This document shows, piece by piece, positions 38,973-60,200 of a DNA stretch of 64,000 nt. The notes under the pieces were generated by a model. The model did no database searches, had not been told where the DNA came from, and saw only the letters and a list, made by a program, of their open reading frames with translations. A program made the translations under genes and the position numbers. The DNA is from Saksenaea vasiformis B4078 (taxonomy: Eukaryota; Mucoromycota; Mucoromycetes; Mucorales; Saksenaeaceae). The stretch lies in NCBI GenBank assembly GCA_000697055.1, contig JNDT01002282.1, positions 124,001-188,000 on the forward strand, written 5' to 3'. Position 1 is the first letter of the stretch; the number at the start of each line of letters is the position of its first letter.

Positions 38973-41948
38973 GGTGAATGAGGACAAAAAAGAGAAAAAG
39001 GCGAAATGGAAGACGGAAAGGTAAGGAATCAAGAGATGGGGACGAAAGAAAGTAGAAAGAGAAAACTGTCAAAAAGAAAAGAAAGAAAGTACTTAGGTTT
39101 TCTTTTCTCGCATGAAAATAAATAAATAAAAAAGAAGGCAAAAAAAAAAAGAGAGTAGAAGAGGTAGGAGAAGGTAAAACCGAAAGGGTTACTGCAATAA
39201 AAAGAAAAAGAGTGAGGGAACAAGTGCACAGAAGATATATGCCTATAGAAAAAAGCCACCGTTTTGTACGACGCATGACCAAAAGAGAAAAAAATGACAT
39301 TTGCAACTGGACAGATCATATGAACAAGTATAGTTAAGTAAAAAAGAAGTTATTGTATAAGTATGGTTGTCTAAGCAACATAAAAGTACATAGTAACCAT
39401 GGTATCAACTGATCAAAAAGTCAAAATACAAAAAAAAATGACAGGACACTATCTACTGCGCTTTGACCATCTGAGCAAATCTGACCCAATCACTTCCATC
39501 AAATGATATAGTAAAAATAAGCCCATTTTTTTTATAAACCTATTATTACTTCTTCTTCTTTGTTTTTCTTATTCTCTTTCCCGATTTTACTTTAAATTCC
39601 TCTTCTTTCATTTTTTCAATAGGCTAAAAAAGAAAGGGTTCTATTTTGTTGAGACATGCCAAATAAGCCTTCGGTTTATGTCGCACGGTAAATATTCAGG
39701 TGAGTTTACTTGTCCGATGCCAAATTTAGGTTGGCGTACAATTTACTGTTTCACTGAGCCCCTCTTTCCCAAACGTTTTTCTTTTTTGTGTTTAATGGGA
39801 AGATCAGTGAGAAAAATAAAAAAACGGCTGATTGTCATGTACATCTCTTTTTTTTTTCCCACATGATCGGATACACTCTATTTTATCGGGGCTTCTTGTG
39901 GAAAAACACTATTCTTTCGTTTCTTTATTTGGATAAAAGAAACGTGGTAGTTGAAAACTGGTGGGAATGGAGGACAAGAAAAAAAAATGTCAGAATCTTC
40001 TTCACATGTTTAAGAACCCTGTTCGAACCGGACTTTTTTCGATTTAACCGGACTATACTATCAGTGATTGTACAACTGAGGCATTTTCCATCTCTAGACA
40101 CAGAAAATGAAAACACAGACAAACGAGAGAGAGACAGACAGAAAGAGATTAGTAAAAAAGGAAGATAAACTAATATAAGTAAAAGGAAGTCCGCATAGAA
40201 AACGAGGTAATGCATTCTCATCATGCAACTATATTACAATGCGTCTTTCAATGAAAACAACTTCCTTCTTCGGTACCAAGGCAACTGTAATGCCGACTTT
40301 TAACCATAATAAAATAAACCGCGCAACATGGATCAACAGTAGTAATACATGTTCCTTCTGCTAATTTACCCCATCCTTTGTGTGGTGTGACTCGTTGGGA
40401 CTTATCATAATGGCTTAATCATCAATCCATAAAAGTAAGCATGCAGTTTGAAACGCGTTTCAGTAATAGATGACGTGATACGCAGATCCTTACGAAATGA
40501 CGTGGACTGATCATCCACGAATTGACACCCGCCCTTCTTACGGTCTATCCGTCACATGTCACTGACATTATCCGTTTCTTTAATCCACGCTAAAGTGCGT
40601 GACAAAAAAGGGTCCATATGCATCGTGGTCTAAAGTGGGGCATAGAACCCTACTTCTCTAGTTTACCAAGTAGAATAACTCGAGAGAAAGCATATCATCT
40701 TCTATAAAGAAAGGAGATCGGAGTTCTCCGTGATTTTTGAAAGTGCTGTCATCATCGCATAAAAAATACGTCAACATACCTTTGGAAATCAGTCCTTACT
40801 AAACTCTTCCAATGCCAAACGCGAGGCCTAGCACCTTAGAATGAGTGCGAATTGTCCGCTGTTGCTGTTATGGATGACCTAACGCTGCGGGTCTCGGTTG
40901 CAATCAATTGTCGTAACTCAGGATAGTGAGAAGTTTTTTTTGAACTACGATGTAGTCCGGACGGCGGAGCAATTTCGTTCTATGAATACGCAATGTTAGT
41001 CGTTGTGATCTTGCAGAAATCAGTGACTTGCTTGTGATGTGGGTGTAACGAATTGCTGTCTGTCATGGTCACAGCTAGAAAATACTTTAGAAGCGGCGTA
41101 CTTGTCTATCAGGATAACCAGCGTCTTCTACGTAAGCGCTCTGCGAAATTAGTAACATTTACTGGCAAGAGTTCAAGAACTCTCAAGGTGGCCCTTACAG
41201 ATCAGCATCACCATAAGCTATAACAGTAGGTTGTGGATGATGTATATGTTCTCCTGACTGTCAGTGGGCGGCGCCTCCTTGAAGGCGTCGCCGACTTGCA
41301 GTGCGGTTCAATGATGATATCCTATCTAAACCATAGATATTAGCTTTACAACTAGAGAGATATCATCACATACGTCATGAGGTGGACTCTGCCAACAAGC
41401 ACTCCGTCGTGCAGAGTATAACAGCATCGGATTTTCCCTGTGGCAATTAAGACCGTGTAACCTGATGATCGTGTAAGTATAGCTTGCTATAATCAAGTAT
41501 CTGATCCACTTACAGTGCATGAATATCATTGCTTAGCATTACGATGTATATCCGGGACTCTACCACGCTAACTATCGGTTGGAGCGTTTTGGCGGTTTCT
41601 AAATGTGCAACCCCTTTTGGGTTTTACTCATTTTTTGGGTTGCATTTCCAGGCCTTTGAAGAACATCCCAAAGAATGATAATAATAATGACAACCATGTT
41701 TCTTCATTTGTAGTTCAGAATGCGGCTGATTCCTTGTAATATTCATTGTGTTATTGGGCTGTTTACTGTGTTGCTGTACGCTGAATGACGCCACTGTCCC
41801 CATTTTTGGAACACCGAAAAGACTGACATATGGGCGCGCCAGCGTTTGGGGATTATCGCTTTTGAGATGTATATATAAAAAAAGGGGGGGGGGAAAGAAG
41901 CAGTGGTATATCCCGTTATTCGTTGTTGTTTTAACTTCTTTCTCTGGC
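38973..41948. other. Long gene-free region upstream of the homeobox gene
   Basis: About 3 kb, rich in A/T and purine/pyrimidine runs from 39000 to 40200. No coding signature found on either strand. A GC-rich hairpin (GGCGGCGCCT near 41266, imperfect inverse near 41285) is present. It probably holds 5' regulation and UTR for the two divergent genes. Confidence 0.5.
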
Positions 41949-43292
41949 ATGGTCATTCAGCAACGCAATATGAAATCAAATGCTTCCATTGACGATCTTG
42001 TCCTGAACGATTCATGGCATCATGTCGCCTCATACGAAACAGAAGATACAGCAGCGCTCTTAGATAAACAACAACATAGAAGAACAATTCATTGGAACGA
42101 ATTGCCTTCATGGATGCAAGATAACGTCTTTATTACTGCTGGTTATCGTCCACCAATGCCAGATTATACGAAATGCTTTAAATCCTTATTTTATCTTCAT
42201 AACGAATGGGGTCCGTGCACACTATCTATCCATCTGTTCAATATTTTAACGTTTTGTCTAGTTAATATATGGAGTCATTTATTGGCTTTCATCGGTTTTC
42301 TGGGTCTTGGCCTCCATTTTTTATGGAGCCAACCTTTCGCAGATAGTCTTACCAAATTCGACTACGCCTACTTTTTTGTATTTATCGGTGGAGCCTTAGT
42401 ATGCTTAGGATTCAGCAGCAGTTTCCACTGTCTGGCATGTCATTCGGAACCGGTCGCCGCTGCATGGAATCGTTGCGACTATGTTGGTATCACAACCCTG
42501 ATTGTGTAAGTTAAATCACAGCCCCAGACTCCGTTCCTGACATCTTCCATAGTGGATCTTACTACCCTGTGATTTATTATGGTTTTCATTGCCATCCAGT
42601 CCTTCAAAGTACAAAAAAAGAAAAAGAACCATGGTAGGACCGCGATGTCTCACAAAAACTTTTCTTAGCTGTCTACTTGACCATGGTATCCGTTTTGGGC
42701 ATCATTACGGTATAAACTTATTCGGCCTTTCTTGTTTTGGACTGACAGGCTTGCTAGGCTGTTGTGACCCTTCATAAACATTTCCGTACGCCTGCTTATC
42801 GATGGATGCGTACGACTCTTTTCCTCGCACAAGGCCTTTTTGGACTTATCCCTACCCTCCATGGTATCTGGATCTATGGTGTACGTACATCCGAGGAAAG
42901 AAATGAAGGAAAACTGATATGGATCCATGTAGTTCCTCCGATCGCTGGATACCATCTCGTTGGGCAACATGATAATAATGGGTGCAAGTTATGTCGTTGG
43001 CGCATTGATCTATGGATACAGGTAAATATCCTTTCTGCTTCCTTGCTTTTTTTTCCTAATCCATTCCTTTAGAATACCGGAACGATGGTATCCCGGCTCC
43101 TTCAATATTTGGGTAAGAAAAACTACATGGCACTCAAATGGGATGATGCTTATTGTTCATACGTAGTTCTCTTCGCATCAGATCTTTCACATTTTCGTAG
43201 TCATTGCTTTGATCTCCCATTACGTGGGTGTAATGAAAGCTATGGCATTCTGGCATGATAAAAATAATGCTGTATGCAATAGCTTCGTGTAA
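41949..43292 (+). CDS. PAQR/Izh-type (adiponectin receptor-like) seven-helix protein
   Basis: Seven exons: 41949-42505, 42553-42608, 42669-42709, 42758-42880, 42933-43021, 43073-43112 and 43167-43292; every phase agrees, giving 343 aa. Hallmarks of the family: ELPSWMQDNVFITAGYRPP, HNEWGPCTLSIHLFN (early His), SSSFHCLACHSE (zinc His), CDYVGI and the final SSHQIFHIFVV with its two zinc His. Seven hydrophobic helices are present. In yeast the Izh proteins affect zinc and sterol homeostasis; animal relatives have ceramidase activity. The start ATG was chosen before the cytoplasmic N-terminal tail; a second ATG lies seven codons later. Confidence 0.92.
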
Positions 43293-43349
43293 ATAGTAGA
43301 TGAATTAGAAAGTCCAGTCTTTTTGTTTTATTATTGGCCAGCCATTAGT

Positions 43350-44090
43350 CTATAGTCCCATAGCTTCTTTCAACATCGCCTTCCTCTTTTCCACTTCCTC
43401 TGCCTCTGCTGCGGGTGTATCAAGCATATCACTGACGGTGCTCGTCACGAATGGTGGACGTCTTTGATGAACGATCTCGTCCACCTTGGCATCCAAGTTC
43501 TCTAATGTAATAAATTCCGAGGTGGAGTTGTAAAGTTTCACAAGCTGCTTCAATCTTTCTTCACGTTTTCTTTCTTCATGAGCTCGTCGATTGGCAATGC
43601 GCTGGCCCTCACGGTCAAACGTAGTCTCCGATTGAGGTAACTCCAAATCAAGCATTCGGACAACCTCACGTTCATGCTCTTTCTGTTGCTGTCGTTCCTT
43701 TTCCAATGCTTGTCGAAGCTGTTGCATCTTCTCTTCTTGAATAGCTCTCTTTGTAGCGGAAGCTGCCTCACGGCGTCCGTGCTTTTCCAACAATTCGCGC
43801 GCATACTCATGACGAAGCGTACGCAACTCCTCACGGTGCTGCTTTTTAGGACTCGCTGTTGCTTCTTTGGGCTTTCCTTCGGGGTTGGGCAAATGTGATG
43901 GTAATGAACTACCGAGGTGACGGCGTTTACGTTCTATCTTTGGTGTCTCTCTTGCACCTTCAGGTGGTGTAAAGCCAGGAGCATAGCCGCGGACACCAGG
44001 GATGTAGTCTGGTGTGGCTGACATGAAACGAACAGAGACATACTGCTGGCATGGCCGATAAAAAGCGGAAAGACGACCCAATCGTTGCAT
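43350..44090 (-). CDS. PET123: Mitochondrial small ribosomal subunit protein mS26 (Pet123-like)
   Basis: 246 aa, single exon, ATG at 44088-44090. The first ~25 residues (MQRLGRLSAFYRPCQQYVSVRF) form an Arg-rich presequence. A central Glu/Lys/Arg-rich helix (about 95-195) and the C-terminal motif LYNSTSEFITLENLDAKVDEIV match fungal Pet123/mS26. Only 58 bp separate its stop from the PAQR stop, so the two genes converge. Confidence 0.82.
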   Translation of the reverse strand: MQRLGRLSAFYRPCQQYVSVRFMSATPDYIPGVRGYAPGFTPPEGARETPKIERKRRHLGSSLPSHLPNPEGKPKEATASPKKQHREELRTLRHEYARELLEKHGRREAASATKRAIQEEKMQQLRQALEKERQQQKEHEREVVRMLDLELPQSETTFDREGQRIANRRAHEERKREERLKQLVKLYNSTSEFITLENLDAKVDEIVHQRRPPFVTSTVSDMLDTPAAEAEEVEKRKAMLKEAMGL

Positions 44091-44224
44091 GGTGTGTGGT
44101 GCCAGTCAAGGTGATCTCTTTTTCTTTTCACAGGCCCATAAACATGAGACTGGGTTTCGCTACACGCACCCCATTGGCGCATCCATCAAATGACGTCAAT
44201 AAAAATCAACCAATCAAGTAATCT

Positions 44225-44340
44225 CCGTACCTCACAGGTGCCCGCAGCACTGCCTCCATTCCACAAGAGGACAAAACCCGGGCCTAACAAAGAGGCTGGA
44301 TGGCAGCTCTCTAACCGCCTTACCACTTGATAAGTGGACA
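44225..44340 (-). repeat. tRNA-derived SINE-like element
   Basis: On the minus strand TATCAAGTGGTAAGGCGG resembles the A box / D-arm of a class II (Ser/Leu) tRNA, and CCCGGGTTTTGTCC, 50 bases later, resembles the B box / T-arm. The clover-leaf is not intact (no matching acceptor stem seen), so it is not a functional tRNA gene. No second copy was seen in the window. Confidence 0.38.
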
Positions 44341-44778
44341 AATAAAAACACCTTAACCAGGACTTCGATTGCCATATACCGGTGACCATCGCTGTGAACT
44401 ACAATGTGTTCCTGCAGATGCAATCACCCAAGACTATACAAATCAAATAAATATTTGTTGAACATGATGGTAAAACTTACCAAAGGAGAACCGGTTAAGG
44501 CAAACCGCTGCGGAGACTCGCACCTAACAATGGGGTCACATCTTAGTAGAACATCTCCGCAGCGGTGCAAAAGGAGTCTAAAGAGATAGCTGTAGTTAAA
44601 TCGTTCATTGACATAAGAAGATATACTTTCCTTGTAAGTTACCAGCATTGCGGTCACCGTTCAACGCGGGATGAAATCATAACTGATAATGCGTAAGAAG
44701 AGGAAGATAAATACATGCGTTTCTTGTCGAAGAAAATAAAAGATTGTCTTACTTGGAAAAGGAGCTTAAACGGTTTGA
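44341..44778. other. Intergenic region with a 12-bp inverted repeat
   Basis: CCGCTGCGGAGA (44505-44516) and its exact inverse TCTCCGCAGCGG (44554-44565), 37 bp apart, could form a hairpin or be the ends of a very small element. No gene seen. Confidence 0.45.
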
Positions 44779-45527
44779 TTATACATCACTTGATATCATT
44801 TCCAATTGAGAGGTATCTGCACCAGGAGAGTGTTCTCTTGCGATTGTATGCGTATAAATGAAGGTTAGAAATTATCCAAAACACAGCGCACTTACCGATA
44901 ACATGTTTGGTTGAAGACAAGAAACAGGGGTTGAATTTTCCCAATCTGATGAGAAAAATTGTTGGAGGCAGTCCAAGACACGTTGATCCATCCAAGACAT
45001 CTTTCACATTCTGACACTCACAGTTCCCACACAGCTTTTTGTCTACATCGACTGCTGGTAAGAATGAGATAAATGAGATGCAACACGTAGACTACTCACA
45101 TTCTTACTACAGTTAACGAAGTTGATGCTGAACGTTTGCGTGCAACAACCGAACTGAAAGACATATTATGTGTAAAAAAATAACCACCGGATGGGAAGGT
45201 ACCCTGATCCAAAATGAGACAGTTTTCGACATCACAAGCCGGTGTCTTATCACAATCAGGTTGATAACGCGCTTTTAACGAACACTGAGATTACATGACG
45301 TAAAAAGCGTATGAAATCGCAACTATCAGGTTCATCAGGATACACTGATGTGTGAAGAACTGATGCATAACACCGGGATAGTTCAGTACATCTTTGTGTG
45401 ACACGTGAATCTGGAGGTTGAAGGACAGCTCTGCTGTTAAACGGTTCCCACGTCTCTGAAACAGTACTCTGCCGTTACGTATTACAGGACATGTAAAGCG
45501 ACAGCAAACATATACAGCTGCAGACAA
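44779..45527 (-). CDS. Cysteine-rich, probably extracellular protein, 5' end unresolved
   Basis: Minus-strand coding segments separated by short introns (ends near 45352-45293, 45211-45162, 45101-45050 and 44892-44835). Readable pieces: RFTCPVIRNGRVLFQRRGN, CDKTPACDVENCLILDQ, FGCCTQTFSINFVNCSKN and SCVGT. The terminal exon reads SPGADTSQLEMISSDV, ending at a TAA at 44779-44781. Cys pairs and N-glycosylation sequons (NCS, NQT) suggest a secreted or lumenal protein. Upstream frames lack an ATG and signal peptide before 45527, so a first exon is missing or lost. Family not recognised. Splice choices are plausible but not certain. Confidence 0.45.
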
Positions 45528-45689
45528 TAACGCAAGATTGCTTTAGTCAAATGTATGGGTACCCATTTTCGACAGCTGAGAGTTGAAGAGGAGGCAATCA
45601 AGAAATGTTTGCTATAGCCAGGCAACATTGCCGCTTATCGAAGCATGTGATACAGCACTGATCAGAAATCGAAAGGGAAGCAAAACAGT

Positions 45690-45807
45690 AAAATTTAACA
45701 TTGTAAAGCAAATAAAATTGTCCAGCAAAAGAAAAAGAAGCTATCGCTAAAATTTAACAAAGAAAAAGGAAGTTGTGCAGCAAAAAAAAATAAAATAAAA
45801 TCTATCG
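45690..45807. repeat. Two-unit direct repeat just 3' of the Fanzor gene
   Basis: Two imperfect units of about 60 bp: TTTAACATTGTAAAG.. TTGTCCAGCAAAA.. GCTATCGCTA, and TTTAACAAAGAAAAAG.. TTGTGCAGCAAAA.. TCTATCGCTA. The second abuts the Fanzor stop codon. In Fanzor and TnpB systems the guide RNA is read from this 3' region, so it is worth noting; no RNA structure was computed. Confidence 0.5.
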
Positions 45808-48800
45808 CTATTGTTGTGCATTTGGTCGTTGAAGCGACAGAGGCCGGGACTCCAGCCTCATGTCGTTCTCCATGTACTGCACTAGGATCCTTCGCATGTT
45901 TCGCGATGCATTCACATCGCGACCCCAGTACTAAAAGAGCAAAATGTGAAGTCCATGAAACCTCCCAAAAAAATACGTACGGTCAGTTGACCTGGCGCAT
46001 CTCCTTCGTGCTCTCCATCGCACACCTTCACGGGATACACCGTCGTTGAATAATGCGGTGGAACTATAGTATTACCATTTTACAGGGTATTTCCGAATAT
46101 GGTCATGCTTACCTCTGAGTTGCCTCTCTCCGCATTGCGAGCTACGGTGCAAGGCTCGCTGATCATTGCCCAAGCAATATCTGCGTCGATGTCTGTCGCC
46201 ACGTAGGCGAAGCACCTTTGTACTGTAAAAATACAATCAGCACAAGTACAGCTCCAGACTATAACTTGGTACCGATGATTGCAAGACCCTGTGGGGATTT
46301 GAAGTTGCTCTGTTTGCTCATCGCAGCTGGAGCAAATCTTGCTTGTATTATACTCGTCAACGAGTATAACTAGCGCTTCCTGGGCTAACGCATTGCGAAA
46401 TTTCTTTGATTTTTTCATATATGAGAAGCTGCTGGTTGCGATGATAGAAAGATACAGACCTTCACAGGGACAGGAGCATGACCTTTCATTCCTGGCTTTA
46501 GATCCGCGTCACCATGAGAGATAATCACAGGAAGTTCGTCTCTTTCCATAATATCTCTTTTTCGTTTCCAGCTGGAGGCAGATGTTTTAAAAACCGGCTC
46601 ATTATACCTCTGTTGACGAATTTAGCACGTGAAATAGCTCTACAGACTTACATTAGGAATAATGTTACGAACAAGTTTGTTCGTTAGTCCGGATAGAGTC
46701 GAAGCTCTTGCTCTGCTCATTGTGAGTAGTCGCTCACGGTGTTCATAAGACGCGTTAAATTGCTGCAGTCTTGTAAAACCTGTTAACGATAACATACAGC
46801 ATCTCCAGTTAGGATTTACCTGGTACGAACGGCACTAAACGTTCCTACATATCTTTGAAATTCCACCATGCTAAATACCTTCGCGGAGTGGTCGTTTAGA
46901 AATGCATAAAATGGCTCAATTCCTGACGATCTACGGGCCGCAAGTTCATTCTGGCATCCCCATGTAAATAGCGACAGTTTCCTGTGATGTTTTAGAAATT
47001 CACGACCAAACACAACAATTTACTCACTGATACAGCCTGTTAGTAATAGAAGAACAATGTTGGTGCCGGAATTCCGCGTCTCTCAGAGGAGCGTTCGTAT
47101 CAACCGCCGTATACATTGAGCGTATGCCTGGATCCTATGTCAGCAAATGTACGTACTTCTATCAATTGCAATGTATGGTACCTGGATCTAGGCCGATAAT
47201 CTTGGATGTGTTGAGCCTTTCCTGAGACAGACCTCTGGGGCGCTTATTGAGGAGATATATACCTCTTTCCCAGTTGCTGAGATCTGCATCTCGTCGCAGC
47301 AATCGGAAGTCTCGTTGCGACGAGGGAGTGCTATCTGGATTGGGCATGTCAGTATATATTCAAACAATTGATGTACTTCACATACATATGCGACGCCTAT
47401 CAAACTGAACATCTGCAACTACTCCATTTGTTTGAAAGAAGTAGGCCAACTCGTATCGCGATCGCGTCGCATCTTGGGCAGCTACCAGATATTTGAATGT
47501 CTCGAAAATTACAGCTCTGTGTTACCATCTGCTTGCCATCTCCATCTGTTTTTTTGGCATCTATCGATGTCAAAAACGGCTTCCCATAATCTTTCTCGTG
47601 AAGTTGGTTCGCGCATTTGGCGCTCGAACTCGCCGAGTGATATCAGTTCCACAGTTCCTCCTTGCGTCTAAAATATGCTAATTAATCACCACCCGAGCGC
47701 GCATAAGAACATATACCAGGTGATCGGGAAGAACTTCAGTCGTAGATACCGATTTGAAGACGTAATACAGTACCCTCGCGTCCACACTGATATGAACAAT
47801 TCTATGATCAGCTATCGGTAAAAGTGACCAACGCTTTCCGTTGTAGAGTTCTGTGTAAGGATAGAGCTTGTGCAGATAGGCCACAATCCTCGGAAACAGG
47901 TTCCAATTTTCTGGCTCCTCAGGGTCTAGCTGCTCAACGACAATGCCTTCCAAGTGTTCCCTGTAAAGTTCCTGCTGAGTTCTATAACATACGTTACACA
48001 TCGATTCGCTTCAAAAGCAAGAGCGTACCGCAAAAATCTCAACAATTCTTGCCGGAAAGGCATATTCAACCAAAGATCGTTACGTATGGCTGCGCGACCC
48101 TGAATCAGACTAATCGCCTGTTTTGCTGTTGACATTTGACAAGAGTCAGATTCAATGTGACAGTAAATGATCAGAGATTTTACCGTACGATTTTGGCCCT
48201 CCCCCTGGTAGTGGTTGGCCATGTCGCTCTTTCAGCTGTTTGAAGTACGCATGATATACATAAAGCATATATGTTTCCACGTTTCCGAGCAAATGATGTC
48301 GTATATCTTGCGATTGTTTAGCAACAACAAAAAGACATACTGACGTCGCTACTTTCACTTACTTTGCATGATCTGCGCAGGAAAATAATACATAATAGCT
48401 ACTATAGCCTTTTCGTAACGTGGGATGTCATAAACATCTGCAAATGTCAGTCGTCAGTGATGAGTAGGATATGTAATAGCGATACGTACATTGCCCATGC
48501 TGATTTTTTCGTAAAAAGTCATAGTAAACCTCGTAGGTGGTTTGTAGTGCCATGCGCCAGGGTTCCTTAAGCAAGAGATTGAATGAACTTATCGTCACGA
48601 CCGTAAACCCTACTGCATGTGTCGCTTGCGTTCGACCGCCTACCAAGTTACACGCCATCCTCCAGAATTTTGCATCCATAATGGGTGGAAACGAGAATTC
48701 ATCATTATCGTCACCGTGCTGCTCCGTCCACCTCCGGACGTGTAAGTTCGCAAGGTTTATAGCATCGGCTCTCAACGTTGTACACTGCTCCGCTAACGAG

Positions 48801-49010
48801 CGAAAACTCACCTAAGTCAAAGCATCATAAGTAGTGCAGTTGTTTGTAGCTTTCGACGCTCACGCGCAGATACGAATATTCTTCCCGCAGAAAATTCTCC
48901 AACTTAAGCTGTCTGGTAACACGAAACTGTCTGTCGCCTTCGCGGGGAAGGATCGAGTGGCGATGTCGCGTTCTTCCCCTTTGTACAGGGAGCTCTTCGT
49001 TGTCAGACAT
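45808..49010 (-). CDS. Fanzor-type (eukaryotic TnpB-like) RuvC nuclease, intact 16-exon gene
   Basis: Exons, 5' to 3': 49010-48864, 48811-48490, 48437-48363, 48306-48184, 48125-48029, 47981-47717, 47667-47526, 47481-47386, 47334-47182, 47127-47028, 46981-46820, 46769-46652, 46609-46460, 46403-46273, 46222-46113 and 46063-45981, with a last coding segment 45930-45808 (17 pieces if the 50-bp intron at 46223-46272 is used). Introns are about 45-55 bp, and all phases agree, giving about 798 aa. RuvC-I is GLDPGIRSMYTAVD (Asp ~472). The canonical RuvC-II position reads ISHGDAD (no Glu). A downstream VDEYNTSKICSSC carries Glu ~667 and the first zinc Cys pair. RuvC-III is YWGRDVNASRNM (Asp ~763). A displaced RuvC-II Glu is a reported Fanzor trait. 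Fanzors are RNA-guided DNA nucleases spread with transposons. N-terminal ~400 aa (FLREEYSYLR, LRADAINLANLHV) have no named domain. No transposase partner adjoins it. Confidence 0.85.
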
Positions 49011-49938
49011 AATGGAGCAACTAAAAAAATGAAAAGAGCAAGGAAACAAATTTTCTGGTATTCAGACTTGTAAAAGCAGTGCTACCTATTTTGACAACAA
49101 AAGAGGAGGTTTGGAACTATTCAGAGTCTCGATTTGACATGTGCGATTTCGTATAAAGCTGCTCTCTATACTTTTTGCGGATGATCTGGCGACGAGCTTA
49201 TGTTAAAACCTTTCTTCAAGTCCGGCGAGATATTCTGATATTAATGAGGAGTTGCACATGGTCATTGTGTCCAGGTTTCAGGTCTACACCACCGCAAGCA
49301 ATGGGAACGGTAAAAATTTTCTCTAATATTATCGGTCTTTCTTATGGGGATTACTGGAATGTCACAACTCCCAGTAATTTTGCGTAGTACGCAGTATTAT
49401 CCAGTGATCATTACTGGATAATATATGGAAATGCAGGTAAATAATAAGGTCATTTCCGTCATGACGTTGAACAGACGAGTGATTTTAGTTTACGTTACCA
49501 AACGAAGCGGTTACTGCTATAGAATGATTTGCAGATGGTTACTGATGGATAGAAATTGAAACAATGGGGATGCTCAGCAAGCGAAATTTGAAAAAAGGAT
49601 TATATTATTAAAATGAGTGTTGTACTGTTTAAATGACTCATGGTGCTTGCGGGTAATAGAGGGATAGAGGAGTCTCGAGTTATCCTTATATGACTCTTTA
49701 CTAGATCCGGATCATTATGCTTATCCTGCTTAACGCATTCTGCGTTCGCTCGCATCTCGGCAACAGTCGGATGAGATAAAATGTGTCTATAACCGTGTTC
49801 TAATAAAGTAACCACCTCCAGTACCTTTTGCCGTGTTCAGATGTATTGTTCTAATCACTATGTAATAATGTAACTATGTCGGATATGACACCAGGATTGT
49901 TCCAGACTAAGTCCATAGCAGATGTGCAATTCAGGGAT
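49011..49938. other. Intergenic region containing a cluster of palindromes
   Basis: No gene. Three palindromes lie head to tail at 49350-49423: ATTACTGG..CCAGTAAT (49350-49378), TGCGTAgTACGCA (49381-49393) and TATTATCCAGT..ACTGGATAATA (49395-49423). The first and third share the core ATTACTGG. The cluster lies about 340 bp upstream of the Fanzor ATG. Confidence 0.55.
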
Positions 49939-50052
49939 GATATGCATAGCTTTTATTGGATGGTAAGGAGGGTACTCATAGTTTTTATTGGGCGGTAGGG
50001 ACGATACTCATAGCTTTTGTTGGATAGCAAAAGTGATATTTATCATTTTATT
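49939..50052. repeat. Tandem repeat, 32-bp unit, three and a half copies
   Basis: Units begin at 49939, 49971, 50003 and 50035 with GATACTCATAGCTTTTATTGG as approximate consensus; the last is partial. Non-coding. Confidence 0.7.
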
Positions 50053-50343
50053 CGCCTTCTTGCGGAAATGTCACCATCAGAAGGTAGGCTTTCTTTCTTA
50101 GATCTTTACACTCTGCATCAGAAAACAATGTGGGAACTACTGCATACTTACCGATAAAAGACAAAATAAAAACATGAAAGGCAGAAAGAAAGAGAGAAGT
50201 GACAACAAATGGAATAAAAAGAAAATCCTTTAACACGTCACCTCCCTGATCTTTCATTATCATACCTGCTGCCATACACAATACATACAAAAATCGCACA
50301 TCCACGTTCCTTGTCAGATAAGCTACGTCACTAAATCGACTTT

Positions 50344-50547
50344 CTTAGGTACCATAGGCGTTACACAATCATGAACTATTGTAGACCGCAATTTTCCTTG
50401 CAAGCTATGACAGTATTCCCGTCTTATGTATTATAACAATTGCTCTCTCCAGGTATTAATTGAACTATTTTAGCAAAATTAAAGTATGGGATAAGGTTTA
50501 GGTAGCTTCTAAAGTGATCTGCTCTGCGCAACACCTACGGTCCTTAA
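50344..50547. mobile_element. MITE-like element, copy 2 (type A)
   Basis: Left end CTTAGGTACCATAGGCGTTA and right end CAACACCTACGGTCCTTAA are imperfect inverse repeats of about 24 bp enclosing roughly 204 bp. The left and right ends match those of the next element. Non-coding. No certain target-site duplication. Confidence 0.6.
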
Positions 50548-50640
50548 CAGCTCTGTCGCTAAAGTCTTAAACTACGTCATTTTTGAGGTGTGGGGTGCGC
50601 CAGTGGGATGCCTGTAGCCAAACTCCCTGATTACAGTGCT

Positions 50641-50819
50641 CTTAGGGACCATAGGTGTTACGCAACCGTGCAGTACTCCAAAGCTCTTACGAGCAACAGC
50701 TGTATCTCCGTATCATAACAAGCGTTCTAGCCAGACGTTAACACAGAGTGACTTAGTAAAACTAAGGTCTATGGTAGCTTCTAAGGTCACCTGCTCTGTA
50801 CAACACTTTGACCCCTAAG
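50641..50819. mobile_element. MITE-like element, copy 3 (type A)
   Basis: CTTAGGGACCATAGGTGTTA at the left and CAACACTTTGACCCCTAAG at the right form about 24-bp imperfect inverse repeats, 179 bp apart overall. The interior TTCTAAGGTCACCTGCTCTG aligns with TTCTAAAGTGATCTGCTCTG in the element at 50344. Confidence 0.6.
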
Positions 50820-50877
50820 AACTCTGATGCTATAAACACCGAGGGTTTCAACGCGATGGACTGTGATAGTCAGATTT

Positions 50878-50972
50878 CTTAGGAGCCATAGCTTGCACAG
50901 CCACAAACCCCCACCGAGACTATCCTAAAACCCGCTGATTTCTGAGCCGAGAAATCCGGTATGGCTCCTAAG
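50878..50972. mobile_element. MITE-like element, copy 4 (short form)
   Basis: TTTCTTAGGAGCCATA and its exact 16-bp inverse TATGGCTCCTAAGAAA bound a 95-bp unit. Its interior aligns with the element at 11955. It lies 264 bp from the stop of the MACPF-Sel1 gene. Confidence 0.65.
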
Positions 50973-51235
50973 AAAGGCGTGACAATTAGAGCGAGAAAAT
51001 GTATCGGCCCATTTGCTTTTGCAATGGGATGTGTCCTCAATGTACAAGCTTTCGGCGATTATAGGATGCTCACAAAACAGGTATCTTTCAAAAAGCTCTT
51101 GCTACGACATCGCTGGACGTTGACTAGAGACAATGTTACTGTAAAAGCTGGTGCATAATGCACAGTAAATGCTCTTTAGGTTCCATTTATTATGCAGTAT
51201 TGTCATCATCTACTTGTCGCTATCCGTACCGTTTC

Positions 51236-54200
51236 TCATAACGCCTCCATTTTTTGTTTTTGAGCAATGCAAAGATGCAACATTGCAGACGTATGACCTT
51301 GGACCACCGCCTTTTGGTACCAATGAATTGCTGCATTGCAGTTAATTTCCACAGCGTGTCCATCACGATACATATTCCCGAGTTGATATTGTGCTTCTGC
51401 ATTGCCTTGCTCGCCAGCTTTTTCATACCATTTAAAAGCCTCGACATCGTCTTTAACAACACCGTATCCATTCATGTACATATCTCCAAGCCTGACTTGC
51501 GCTATTGGAATACCTTCTGCAGCCGCTTGGTGGTATAATTCAAAGGCCTCTGTTGCATTTTCGCTCATAGCATGCCCACTAGAGATCATATCTCTCAGAC
51601 GCTGCTGTGCGTTGGCATTTCCTTGTTCGGCCGCCTTTCTGTACCATTTAACAGCCTTGAATTCATCTTTATCCACACCTCTCCCGTTCCTGTACATGTT
51701 TCCAACTTTGGTCTGCGCATAGGCGTTGCCCTGGTCAGCCGCTTTAACATACCATCCAAAAGCCACAACGTAATCTTGAGTTACACAGGCGCCACTCTTA
51801 AACATATCTCCAAGCAGGATTTGCAGGACCACATTTCCCTGATGAGCTAACTCTTCCCACTGCTTTAACATGCTGTCATGGTCTTTATCCACAGGTTTTC
51901 TCCCTCTGGATATGCTTTCAATTCGTCGTAGTGCCGTTTCATTCCCCTTGTCAGCTGCCATTTTGTACCATTTGATTGCTTTGGAAAAACTTTGCCCAAT
52001 ACATTTTCCGTTTCTGTACATATCACCGATCCTGATTTGCATATACTGACTCCCACATTCGGCCGCTTTCTTGTACCATTGAGTGGCCGTGATATCATCT
52101 TGATCGACACCCGTTCCATCTCTGTACATGTCGCCGAGTTCAATATGCGCATGCTCGTTTCCCTGATCTGCCGCCTTTTTGTACCATTCGATGGCTTGGG
52201 ACATGTCTTTTTCCGTACCATCTCCAGCACAACACATATCACCTAATTCCTTTTGTGCATAGCTGCTACCCTGCATGGCTGCCTTTTTGTACCATTGGAA
52301 TGCTTTTATACTATCTTTTTCCACGTCTGCTCCGTATCGGTACATATCTCCTAGACGGATCGGCGCATCGCAATCGTTCTGTTCCGCTGCTTTTTCGTAC
52401 CATTGAATCGCTTTGTCGATGTTTTGATCCACACGATCTCCATCTTTGTACATATCACCAACTTTAATCTGCAGAGCTTGATTTCCATTAGAAGCTGCCT
52501 TTTCGTACCATTGGGTTGCTTTGTAGTAATCGGTTGCTACACCTTCTCCGACATAATAGATATCTCCAAGGGCAGTTTGCGCTTCCTGATTTCCCTGTTC
52601 GGCCGCCTTATTGTACCATTCAATGGCTTTGTCTATGTCTTGACCGTCGTAATCTTCATCCCAGTAGATCTCAGCAAGTTTAATTTGCGCTTCTTCATCC
52701 CCTTGATCGGCTGCTTTTCTGTACCACCCAATAGCTTCATCATAGTCTTGCTCTACACCACTCCCGTCCCTATACATGTCACCGAGACTGTTTTGCGCAT
52801 CGATATTGGCCCGAAGAGCAGCCTTTCTGTACCACTCGTATGCTTTGGCGTAGTTCATAGGCACATTTTCTCCGGAGTAGTACATATCGCCCAGCCGCGT
52901 TTGCGCCTCTTCGTTACCTTGATCAGCCGCTCTCATGTACCATTCCATAGCTTCACTGTCGTCCTTTTCGACACCTTGGCCCTGCGTATACATTTTTCCT
53001 AAGCTATATTGGGCTGCAGCCAAGTTCCCATTGGCTGCAAGCTTTAACCAGTTGAATGCCGCCGTATAATCCCGCGTGACACCGATGCCATCTCTGCACA
53101 TGATTCCAAGTCTTTGCTGTGCATCGATATGATGCTGATGGGAGGCTTTTTCGAACCATTCGAAGGCTTTGATAGGATTTTGATCTACACATTGACCAGA
53201 GCTGTACATGCATCCAACCTGGTACTGAGCTTGGCTATGGTTGTGATTGGCTGCCTTCTGAAACCATTTGAAAGCTTCAACATTGCTTTTCACCACTCCC
53301 TCGCCGGATACATGCATCATCCCTAACTTGTACTGTGCATCGACAAGCTCTTGGTTGGCTGCTCTCTGAATCCATTGCGATGCTGCGTCATGGTCTTGGT
53401 ATGTACCTCCACCGCTGTTGTACATAATACCAAGGTTGTACTGTGCTTGAGCATGATTCTTTTCGGCTGCTCTTGTGAACCAATAGAGAGCTGGCCTATA
53501 GTTTTTCTCTACACCTTCGCCATTGTAGTACATTACGCCAATGCTGTTTTCTGCATCCGCATTATTTTGATTAGCTGCCTTTTGGAACCATTTCAATGCC
53601 CTGAAGTGGTCTTGCGATACACCGTTGCCATCTTTATACATACATCCCAGTTGATATTGAGCAGCACCGTTACCCTGATTTCCGGCTTTTAAAAACCACT
53701 GGTAGGCTTCGGAATAATCCTGTACGACCCCCTTTCCATTCATATACATTCCGCCAAGATTATTCTGTGCGTTCGCGTCATTGTCATCGATAGCTTTTAC
53801 TATCCACTCGCAAGCTTTCATGTGGTCCTGATCAACCCCAAATCCATTTGCATACATCATCCATAATCGATAGCGGCCGAACGGATCCATAGAAGGTGGG
53901 AGCATTTTGAACTTTTTTATCATTTGAACATTAGCGTGGCTTATGTGATCCACATGGTTGACGCAAGTTTGCTCTGAAAAGTTCTTTTGGACTACATATT
54001 TGCACGTCCTCTCCACCATAGCTTTTAGCCGTTGTGGTAGTAAACAGTAAGCAGGGTTAAGCTGCTTGAGCTGAATGATCATCGGGTTTGCTTGAATCGA
54101 TTCTATCCAACAGTTGACATTAGGTCGAGAGAAAGGCAAGGAGGAACGATCATAAGGATTAAAGAGAAGCGTTGGATCACCACCTGTCACGAAACAACGT

Positions 54201-57267: not shown

Positions 57268-60200
57268 TTATGAGCTTCTCCAACCAAAGAAAGTGCAGAC
57301 GCGTTGAAACTATGTACTACTTGTGCAAAATTTGTAAAAACTATTTCCAAGCGACGCAGCAATCAGAGGCAGAGTACAAAATCAGTTGCAATGCTAAGCG
57401 ACTGGAGGAATCTCTCACGAGATTGTTGCTCGAAGATGAGTGTGCCCTCTTCGCAGTTTAAGCATCTCTTAACGACATGGTAGATGAGGTCTACGCGAAC
57501 ACTTGCTCGGGTGATGAGAACCCTACGGTATTCTACGAGAGAATTCTTCGGATTCCTTGCAAAGGTTAACGTTCTTATTGATTCTATATAGTCACCTATT
57601 TCGCCAGCGAATCCGATAGATAACGATCCGGATTATTATTATGAAGACGATATCTCCATCAACTGTTGGCAAGCGGAGGATGATTTACCTGCCAACAATT
57701 TTCGCGTACAAGCAGACAATGTTGCCGATACTTTGCAGCTGGAAGATGATATGTCATTTTGCGAGCCAGACGACACTTTCCCTGTGGAGGAAACCGTTCA
57801 GGAACCAGACTTAACGGAACCGATTGCTAGAGAACCGCTTCATTTCTCGTTCAATTCAGCAGATCTTGACGAACCTGACTTGGCAGCAACTTTTAGCATG
57901 AAGCTGTTTGCGCTTGCAAAAGAGCATGGGGCCTCCAGAGCATACTATGAAAAACAAGTGGAACTGTTCAATACGTGGAACACTCTTCATGACAATCCCC
58001 CTTTCTTGTCGCACCACCTTGCTTCAAAGCAGTTCCTGAGCACGTTTCCCATTCAGATGAAACTGTATCCTGTATACGTGAACGGTTGTCAGATGTTCAG
58101 CGGTGAAGACGAGGCAGATACGTGTCCCCATTGCAACGAAGCATTGTACGTCCAGGAGCAAGATGACCAATACAGCGACAATGGATCGCCACAAGATCAG
58201 TACATGTCACGAAAACGAAAGCCCCGTGCAGTAGTCAAGCAATTACCGCTACATTCTCAATTGGGACTGATGTTAGCAAACGATAAGACACGCGAACTGC
58301 TTAAGTATCGCTCGCAGAGACAAACCAATTCTGAAGGTGTATACGAGGATGTTTTTGACGGTAAAATGTACAAGATGCTGAAAACAACCCACTTCTTGGA
58401 CGAGTTGGATATTGATCTGGCACTGTACGCCGATGGTTTCACGCCTTCTAAGCGAACCAGCAATACAATGACGGTCGTTCACGTGGTGGCGCTTAACTTC
58501 CCTCCTAAGATCCTGTACCAAGAGAAGTACATGTTGCAGCTATGTATTATTCCAGGACCGAGATCTCCAAAAGATCTGTTAAGCTTCTTTCAGCCCCTCC
58601 TCCGCGAACTAGAACGTATGCAAACTTCAGGATTGCAGGTGAACTGCGGCGAAGTATCGTATAGCTCGAAAGTTCATCTTATGCTTGCATCCGGGGATAT
58701 TCCAGGGATCTCAAAATTGATGAACCATCGTGGACATACGTATGAATACGGATGCCGCATCTGTTGCATAAAAGGCAGTAGACAGGAGATTTCCGAGTCG
58801 AACGTTACAGGCGCAGATAGCGAGCGTGGTTCGACCTTGAAAACATTGCGAAGCGCTTGTTTCATACCAACGGGCAGTAAGCCCCATATCGATCGAAGAA
58901 GTCTCTTATAAATGGGGATGAAACGAAAGGAATAACCGAAGGTTCACTGTTTTCTGTTCTATCTACTTCCACTGGTCCATTTTTCTTCGGTATGGATGAA
59001 ATGCATCTAATCGGTCATGGCGTTGGAACAGGTTTGGAACTTGCTGTCAGGGAAGTATGGAAAAAAGCATGCGCTTTATCTGAAGACTGACGTGCGAGAA
59101 AAGATCGGAAGTAACATGAAGAAAGTTCGAAGACCGTCCCGACTATATTCCACAGTAATTGGAAAGATATTGAGAAGACTTCCGGCAGCTTTAAGGCAGT
59201 GGACTGGTTGGATTTTCTCCTCTACGTTGTGCCAACCATCGTTCAGGAGCATGTTACGGACCGTGCAGCGAAAGACGCCGTATTGAGTTTAGTCGATGCC
59301 TGTTCCCTTGCAGAACGATGGGATCTAACAGACACATCTAACAGACACGGATTTACAAGCGATCGATCGTGGAGTAAAGGCTGGCACAACTACCTATATG
59401 AGCAGTCGCGGGCCGGAAATATCAGTAGCAGCGTGTTTACCATCACGCAGCATTATCTGACGCATATGACTGCCGTGATCGAACAGTTAGGTCCACTACG
59501 AGGTATCAGCACACGTCCGATGGAGAGAACCATAGGGATATACAAAAGTGGAATACGATCCCATGTCAAACCTAAAGAAAATGCTGCAAAGGTAATGTAC
59601 ATTCTGTCAGCATACCGATATTTTGAACATGTGTATGAGAACAACGCAGATCCAGTAGATCCTCCTCAGCAGCAGAAATCTAGCCAGGTTATCGTAGCAA
59701 ACGCTGATGATCCCAATGCCCCAGAATTATGGGTCCCATTCAAGAGACGCGTACCAATCAGTACCATGAATAACAACAACTACAACCTCCTTCCACTCCT
59801 GCAGAGATTTTGGTCAATATATAGCGACGATGTGCAATCCATTGAGACACATATAACGACGGGATCACGTCTATGGAAGATGGATGGAGAGATAGTTGGG
59901 TGTGATCCAGACGATAACGATGATGGTAGCAGCGCCGGTGAAAACAGAGCGAACCACATGGTGCAGTTAGAACTCGATGTCGACTGCAACCGACAAAGCC
60001 GGAGTATCAGACGAGTTCCTCGTACTTACTTTGGGAAAGTGCTTTCGTTTTTCAAGCATTCGCACAATAATTTAACGGAGCTGCTCGCCTTAGTCTGCTT
60101 ATACAAGATAGAGCTTACTTCACGAGGATTACCATACATCCAGCCATCAGCACAACGACAGATGTGCGTAGTTCGTGCTGCAGACATAGTCTGCATGACG

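Follow-up and report, generated by a model that had tools for sequence, protein, structure and literature searches.

The window, a 64,000-nucleotide stretch of the Saksenaea vasiformis B4078 genome (contig JNDT01002282.1), carries on its minus strand an intron-rich gene that we assign to the Fanzors, lying in a mobile unit with a conserved and structured 3' end (Table 1). A second full copy, C580 (locus L029), was found in the comparison genome, an assembly of 38.7 Mb in 666 contigs that contains the window.

Table 1. Features of the Fanzor locus, in window coordinates
Feature	Position	Strand	Remarks
Mobile unit common to window and C580	44151..49890	minus	5.74 kb, 92% identical, flanks unrelated
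LTR-like 5' end	49543..49890	minus	About 348 bp, TG..CA by eye; reverse transcriptase-bearing retrotransposon family, in gene orientation
Fanzor gene (predicted)	45808..49010	minus	17 exons, 16 GT-AG introns (42–58 bp), 798 aa; supported by intact second copy C580 and shuffles
D472 codon	47186..47188	minus	RuvC-I GLDPG; close to end of exon 9; aligned to PpFz1 DPG in weak stretch
E667 codon	46353..46355	minus	Alternative RuvC-II Glu, six residues before CSSC pair
CSSC, first zinc pair (C674, C677)	46323..46334	minus	Gene model, alignment of relatives
Divergent tract, end of exon 15 to start of exon 17	45840..46120 (approximate limits)	minus	Unlike C580 and C577
CDGEH, likely second zinc pair (C745 and H749)	46008..46022	minus	Inferred from paralogs with C-x2-H
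D763 codon	45916..45918	minus	RuvC-III YWGRDVNAS; aligned to PpFz1 RD in weak stretch
Candidate omegaRNA/reRNA scaffold	44152..44337	minus	3' end of mobile unit; conserved, structured
Scaffold helices	Ha 44337-44323; Hb 44319-44302; Hc 44296-44282	minus	
Closing helix	44279-44272 with 44159-44152	minus	
Presumed guide (flank directly after scaffold)	44132..44151	minus	Position only; analogy with Fanzor/TnpB

The gene model runs from an ATG at 49010 to a stop at 45808 with GT and AG at the borders of 16/16 introns. Intron 7 has alternative acceptors (GTAG or CAAG), each in frame as read from the sequence, and intron 9 splits the glycine codon of the DPG motif. In the 798-residue protein GLDPG lies at 470, ISHGDAD at 630, VDEYN at 665 and YWGRD at 759. 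An initial annotation, made from the letters alone, had given coordinates, frame and the residue numbers D472, E667 and D763 that proved exact in the rebuilt model, and its count of more than fifteen introns of about 50 bp with the frame kept from ATG to stop agrees with the 16 introns of 42–58 bp found here. It had also argued that chance would not keep such a frame. This holds for introns of 40–60 bp, where one of 600 dinucleotide shuffles gave an open chain and needed 23 introns to do so, against 16 in the real sequence (a smaller earlier set gave 0/60), but fails for introns of 35–80 bp, where 31 of 200 shuffles were open; 19–22 introns were needed in the 20 of these 31 for which the number is available, and 14 in the real sequence. 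The chance argument is therefore valid only if intron size is held within narrow limits. Stronger proof of the gene model than the shuffles comes from the C580 copy: it is 92.4% identical to window 44151–49890, retains GT and AG in all 16 introns and has a frame open over 799 aa, its exons differing from those of the window by a single in-frame indel of 3 bp and six of its 16 introns differing in length by a non-multiple of 3.

Relation to Fanzor 1 and the RuvC-II glutamate

The predicted protein matches the Pfam family PF07282 (Cas12f1-like_TNB) at E 2.3e-5, just below the family cut-off. In a database of 5.8 billion proteins it had one match, the metagenomic protein P0001 (E 1.6e-5, 8000 candidates scored), and a single-sequence search of solved structures gave no match. 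A profile (A1) was built from six relatives, among them P0001, which is therefore matched by construction in the later profile search (again 8000 candidates scored). When searched against solved structures, the profile had a sole match at E ≤ 1, Parasitella parasitica Fanzor 1 (PpFz1; PDB 9cf0–9cf3), at a whole-sequence E of 7.5e-4. The NCBIfam TnpB model matches two of the six profile members weakly and far below its cut-off.

PpFz1 is a fungal Fanzor 1 that works with a short omegaRNA, according to the available text of PMC11423790. The likeness to it consists of TDGV, DPG, DE.TS..C..C and W.RD..A..N in matching order; the profile match is weak. PpFz1 has a cyclophilin-binding insertion in its RuvC domain. 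By stretch, the alignment gives 18.6 bits around the glutamate and 6.1 and 3.2 bits around the two aspartates, YWGRDVNASRN (from 759) being aligned to LWNRDQAAVLN in the 3.2-bit stretch; the glutamate stretch is the only one that scores well by itself, the aspartate stretches being weak. The second zinc pair of PpFz1, as read from the profile alignment, is probably CKNMSC where the window has CDGEH, and PpFz1 also seems to depart from C-x2-C at this position.

Two Fanzor signatures, DPG at RuvC-I (GLDPG) and RD with a following N at RuvC-III (YWGRDVNASRN), are present. Identification of the gene as a Fanzor is thus supported by motifs, profile match and Pfam match, and protein size, introns and the match to PpFz1 point to Fanzor1 rather than Fanzor2. 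The initial annotation had proposed a profile search as a check on its reading of an unbroken, intron-rich Fanzor gene; the Pfam, PpFz1 and NCBIfam results are its outcome, and the reading is borne out by the gene model, by a C580 copy with all introns and by the first two of these matches.

Its headline, a displaced RuvC-II glutamate, describes a real feature: the canonical position reads ISHGDAD, without Glu, and E667 precedes the first zinc cysteine by six residues (E667-YNTSKI-C674). In an anchored alignment of 25 rows, from which columns near stops or with low local identity were excluded, all 19 rows that keep a residue at the E667 column have E; counted by distinct loci, 18 of 23 keep a residue there, again always E. 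As a surprise, however, the claim does not stand. According to the available text of PMC10711439, Fanzors have an alternative glutamate (Ealt) six residues ahead of their first zinc Cys, and in these proteins DPG is also near-exclusively found. Given this rule and the E in every row that retains a residue, E667 is the norm of the family and no novelty, and the displacement, a published Fanzor hallmark, is ordinary; it separates the window gene from most TnpBs, not from Fanzors.

The genome also holds two further Fanzor groups, A and B, whose proteins are about 50% identical to that of the window. A decayed Fanzor copy of group B type lies at 40859–41453 on the minus strand of the window; its DEY has become DKY, placing K at the glutamate position, and it lacks the first zinc Cys and contains a stop.

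A conserved 3' end and its candidate guide RNA

The 3' end of the unit is likely to be a guide-RNA (omegaRNA) scaffold. The first 500 bases of the unit, counted from the 3' side of the gene, recur in at least 39 other places of the genome (neighbouring pieces merged, 40 of 55 candidates scored). DNA of the window-type gene (881 bases tested) is found in four places including the window at 79% identity or more (9/9 candidates scored), and therefore the RNA end is far commoner than the gene; near the 39 other RNA ends listed, a window-type gene was detected in four cases and none was detected in the other 35. The sequence upstream of the RNA end occurs at six loci including the window, one of them partial (6/6 candidates scored). 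All 23 copies that were read (the window and 22 of the 39 others) share one 3' end point and have unrelated flanks; the terminal GTAGCGAAAC[CT]C is exact in 15 of them, and the base after the element end (44151 in the window) is a purine in 22.

Groups A and B have helices Hb and Hc in the same columns as the window, Hc being shifted by one in the window subfamily W2, and the closing helix at the same place in quite different sequence. The closing helix was examined in 37 sequences (10 W1, 13 W2 and, with complete ends, 7 of 9 group A and 7 of 8 group B loci). Pairing was best within groups, with mean energies of −9.9, −11.0, −10.1 and −10.0 kcal/mol; combinations between the W set, A and B gave −3.9 to −8.6 kcal/mol. 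The helix is common to W1 and W2. The observed values were reached by 16, 1, 1 and 46 of 500 shuffled tails, the last figure being that of group B, whose closing helix exceeds shuffled tails by a small margin. Pairing was also counted in 26 sequences (15 W, 5 A, 6 B), over columns clear of truncated 3' ends. It amounts to 99.2% of cells in Hb, where one column pair is seen as GU, GC, CG and AU, and to 81.7% in Hc, the latter value being lowered by the W2 shift. In two separate counts, the number of pairs with two-sided changes was not significant (63/500 and 174/500). Taken alone, the last 60, 80, 110 and 140 nt were reached by 42, 46, 9 and 17 of 100 shuffles and so do not stand out.

A covariance model built from the window family alone and searched over 27 sources found the ends of seven of the nine group A loci (E 8e-7 to 1.1e-4), five exactly at the element end and two off by 14 and 25 bases, and an additional contig-cut group A end (E 0.004). 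Of the eight group B loci it matched one (E 6e-4, stopping 53 bases before the element end) and gave a wrong-strand match at another (E 0.05); in eight other Fanzor loci there was no match. Positions 40000–52000 of the window contain no Rfam family at E ≤ 1. In the window some 1.5 kb separate the RNA end from the stop codon, whereas in groups A and B the two overlap. Among the Fanzor papers listed, including those on Mucor and on introns, no title or abstract opening mentions such a shared RNA layout.

It is possible, though in our view unlikely, that a transposase recognises this conserved 3' end as DNA and that it is no guide RNA. The conserved sequence lies at the terminus, single-stranded DNA would fold into its hairpins as well, and the two strands score alike against shuffles (antisense z −2.8, 1/100; sense z −2.6, 0/100), so that z-scores leave the RNA strand undecided; the sense fold is more stable than the antisense fold in 23/23 copies. 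However, three Fanzor groups have this layout, which like an omegaRNA stops at the flank; the closing helix varies by group yet still pairs, and core-to-end lengths of 75–149 nt (75 in a copy with a deletion) are close to the omegaRNA lengths of 75, 90 and 150 nt given in the available text of PMC11423790.

An open frame weakly similar to mitochondrial ribosomal protein S26 (below the Pfam cut-off) lies a short way beyond the end of the unit and downstream of it, and the presumed guide is therefore probably sequence from upstream of that gene. The first 16 bases of the presumed guide have no perfect match elsewhere and one site with one mismatch, and no target-adjacent motif was found. Because at least 39 other RNA ends exist, only four with a window-type gene detected nearby, we also put forward, tentatively and with more doubt than belief, that the 3' RNA ends are exchangeable cassettes and that the nuclease diversifies as lineages swap its zinc/RuvC-III segment; if true, dozens of RNAs encoded by other elements, each with a different guide, may serve one nuclease in trans.

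Many matches to the 3' part stop at 44633, and we considered whether these were short ghost elements ending there. Related sequence continues beyond this point in 8/8 copies read, out of the 35 with no gene detected, and is unlike that of the window, and the copies are therefore other elements, not shortened window elements. In these eight loci (L082–L089) the sequence upstream of the shared RNA end is coding-looking and shared among all copies. A remnant of the window family's 3' RNA end is also seen at 50575–50626 on the plus strand, in opposite orientation and about 700 bp from the unit.

Selection and a divergent zinc/RuvC-III tract

Between the window and C580, dN/dS is 0.28 overall and 0.34 in exons 1–14, where nonsynonymous changes are below the neutral expectation (Fisher p 1e-5, against equal rates), which suggests purifying selection acting between the two full copies. 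Two further near copies, C577 and C233, are 5'-truncated, being cut at about residues 309 and 349. PF07282 matches at least 137 places in the genome (150 of 388 candidates scored), a count that misses members of the window type since the window's own gene is absent from it, and the window protein matches at least 125 exon-level places, window exons included (56 of 649 candidates scored). Non-coding sequence at 44408–45007 is 98–99% identical to C580 outside gaps, the exon average being 94%.

The part of the gene that encodes the second zinc pair stands apart. In relatives CSxC is followed by C-x2-H (CNQH, CHHH), and most have QC[PD]E between the two. In the window CSSC is present and the likely second pair, CDGEH, follows after a long spacer, where paralogs have C-x2-H or, in C580 and C577, CPHQH. 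The second pair had been singled out initially as unusual; it does differ from two clean CxxC, and the oddity is partly the pattern of the family and partly that of a recombinant tract. In the tract core (two 100-column blocks) the window is 61–63% identical to C580 and 57–60% to C577, whereas C580 and C577 are 81–86% identical to each other. Synonymous differences between window and C580 affect 39 of 76 sites in exons 15–17 compared to 35 of 468 in earlier exons (p 1e-18), and intron identity is 60/99 in introns 15–16 compared to 674/702 in preceding introns (p 1e-21). The window copy has thus acquired a diverged in-frame segment of about 280 bp, by recombination or gene conversion. A DNA search of the assembly found no closer donor (4/4 candidates scored); the best others are 69% identical across the whole tract and 85% in the last third of it.

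Such a segment could have damaged the zinc/RuvC-III part, in which case the window gene would be a recently dead copy that has lost cutting. The divergence of the tract core from both near copies, the CDGEH in place of their CPHQH and the failure to find a donor in the genome are all in line with this. However, the frame stays open through the tract, introns 15 and 16 have both their splice sites there, and the RD motif and a Cys plus a His remain; dN/dS against C580 is 0.17 in exons 15–17, and we consider recent death of the gene distinctly improbable. The recombinant zinc/RuvC-III tract amounts to a natural domain-swap experiment. The new parts of this locus are the RNA end and the swapped-in gene piece; the shifted catalytic residue is normal for Fanzors.

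The mobile unit and its proposed function

The LTR-like repeat at the 5' end of the unit occurs in at least 38 further places (40 of 78 candidates scored), and in the 12 of these that were read similarity begins at the same base or one base later. At C502 two such repeats, 5 kb apart, enclose a reverse transcriptase frame and a protease frame, the latter slightly below the Pfam cut-off. Position 49890 is thus the edge of an LTR-like repeat, and the search for a true 5' terminus, marked by inverted repeats or a target duplication, was negative: the unit ends showed no inverted repeats, and inspection by eye revealed no target duplication at the window and C580 units. Ends of Helitron, Crypton or MULE type were also weighed and not adopted. 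A second gene of ubiquitin-protease-like type at 44786–45290 was rejected, as five translations of the 3' region gave Pfam E values never better than 0.2, C580 has a 13-bp deletion there, and 0/47 UCH places lie within 20 kb of any listed RNA end. Groups A and B have a common 5' module, although their genes differ, which extends up to about 680 bp at 89–97% identity in most pairs and about 300 bp at 70% in others. An example is a 5' side of about 675 bp, 94% identical between the two groups (L032 971–1645 and L044 1298–1973, gene orientation).

Comparable arrangements are described in other fungi. According to the available text of PMC10432273, Spizellomyces punctatus Spu-1 comprises multi-copy Fanzor elements with RNA at the 3' end, and its RNA ends also occur at places without a gene; its 30-nt inverted repeats have no visible counterpart at the ends of the window unit. 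The MCi-2 Fanzor1 elements of Mucor circinelloides (Bao and Jurka 2013; available text of PMC3627910) likewise combine one common 3' part, which includes the Fanzor gene, with 5' parts that differ, but show patterned target duplications of 11–12 bp, which were not seen by eye at the window and C580 units. The window Fanzor is well preserved and of known kind.

Domestication of the gene, with the mobile role lost, the protein serving the host and the RNA end a transposon remnant, would fit the purifying selection between two full copies and a unit in which no transposase was recognised (Fanzor protein and five 3'-region translations scanned), but two sharp-ended copies at unrelated sites and the 5'-truncated C577 and C233 fit mobility, and we regard it as very unlikely.

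Considering the gene model and its conservation, the homology to a Fanzor 1 of solved structure, the 3' end with its sharp limit and a helix layout shared between groups, all of which are observed, we find it quite probable that an intact Fanzor1-type gene in a mobile element encodes an RNA-guided nuclease that uses the element's own 3' RNA. Transcription, RNA binding, cutting and benefit to the element would follow the model of proven Fanzors, in which a protein acts with a 3' RNA whose flank is the guide (available text of PMC10432273 and PMC11423790). An RNA would be transcribed from the 3' end of the element, comprising the scaffold (44337–44152) and about 15–20 nt of flank as guide; the 798-aa protein would bind the 3' RNA of the same element; and the complex, with D472, E667 and D763 forming the RuvC site, would cut guide-matching DNA beside a short target-adjacent motif. 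As has been proposed for TnpB and Fanzor, cutting of an empty or sister site would then help the element to be retained or copied.

This single intact locus gives base-exact positions for the gene, the RNA end and the presumed guide, and the system can therefore be built and tested directly. Since three diverged groups in one genome have a common RNA layout, cross-use between them is testable too.

At L039 (C538) the nine bases AAGGTCATA occur at both flanks of the element, possibly as a target duplication, and a Transposase_21 (tnp2) reading frame lies on the plus strand of the window at 57592–58911.
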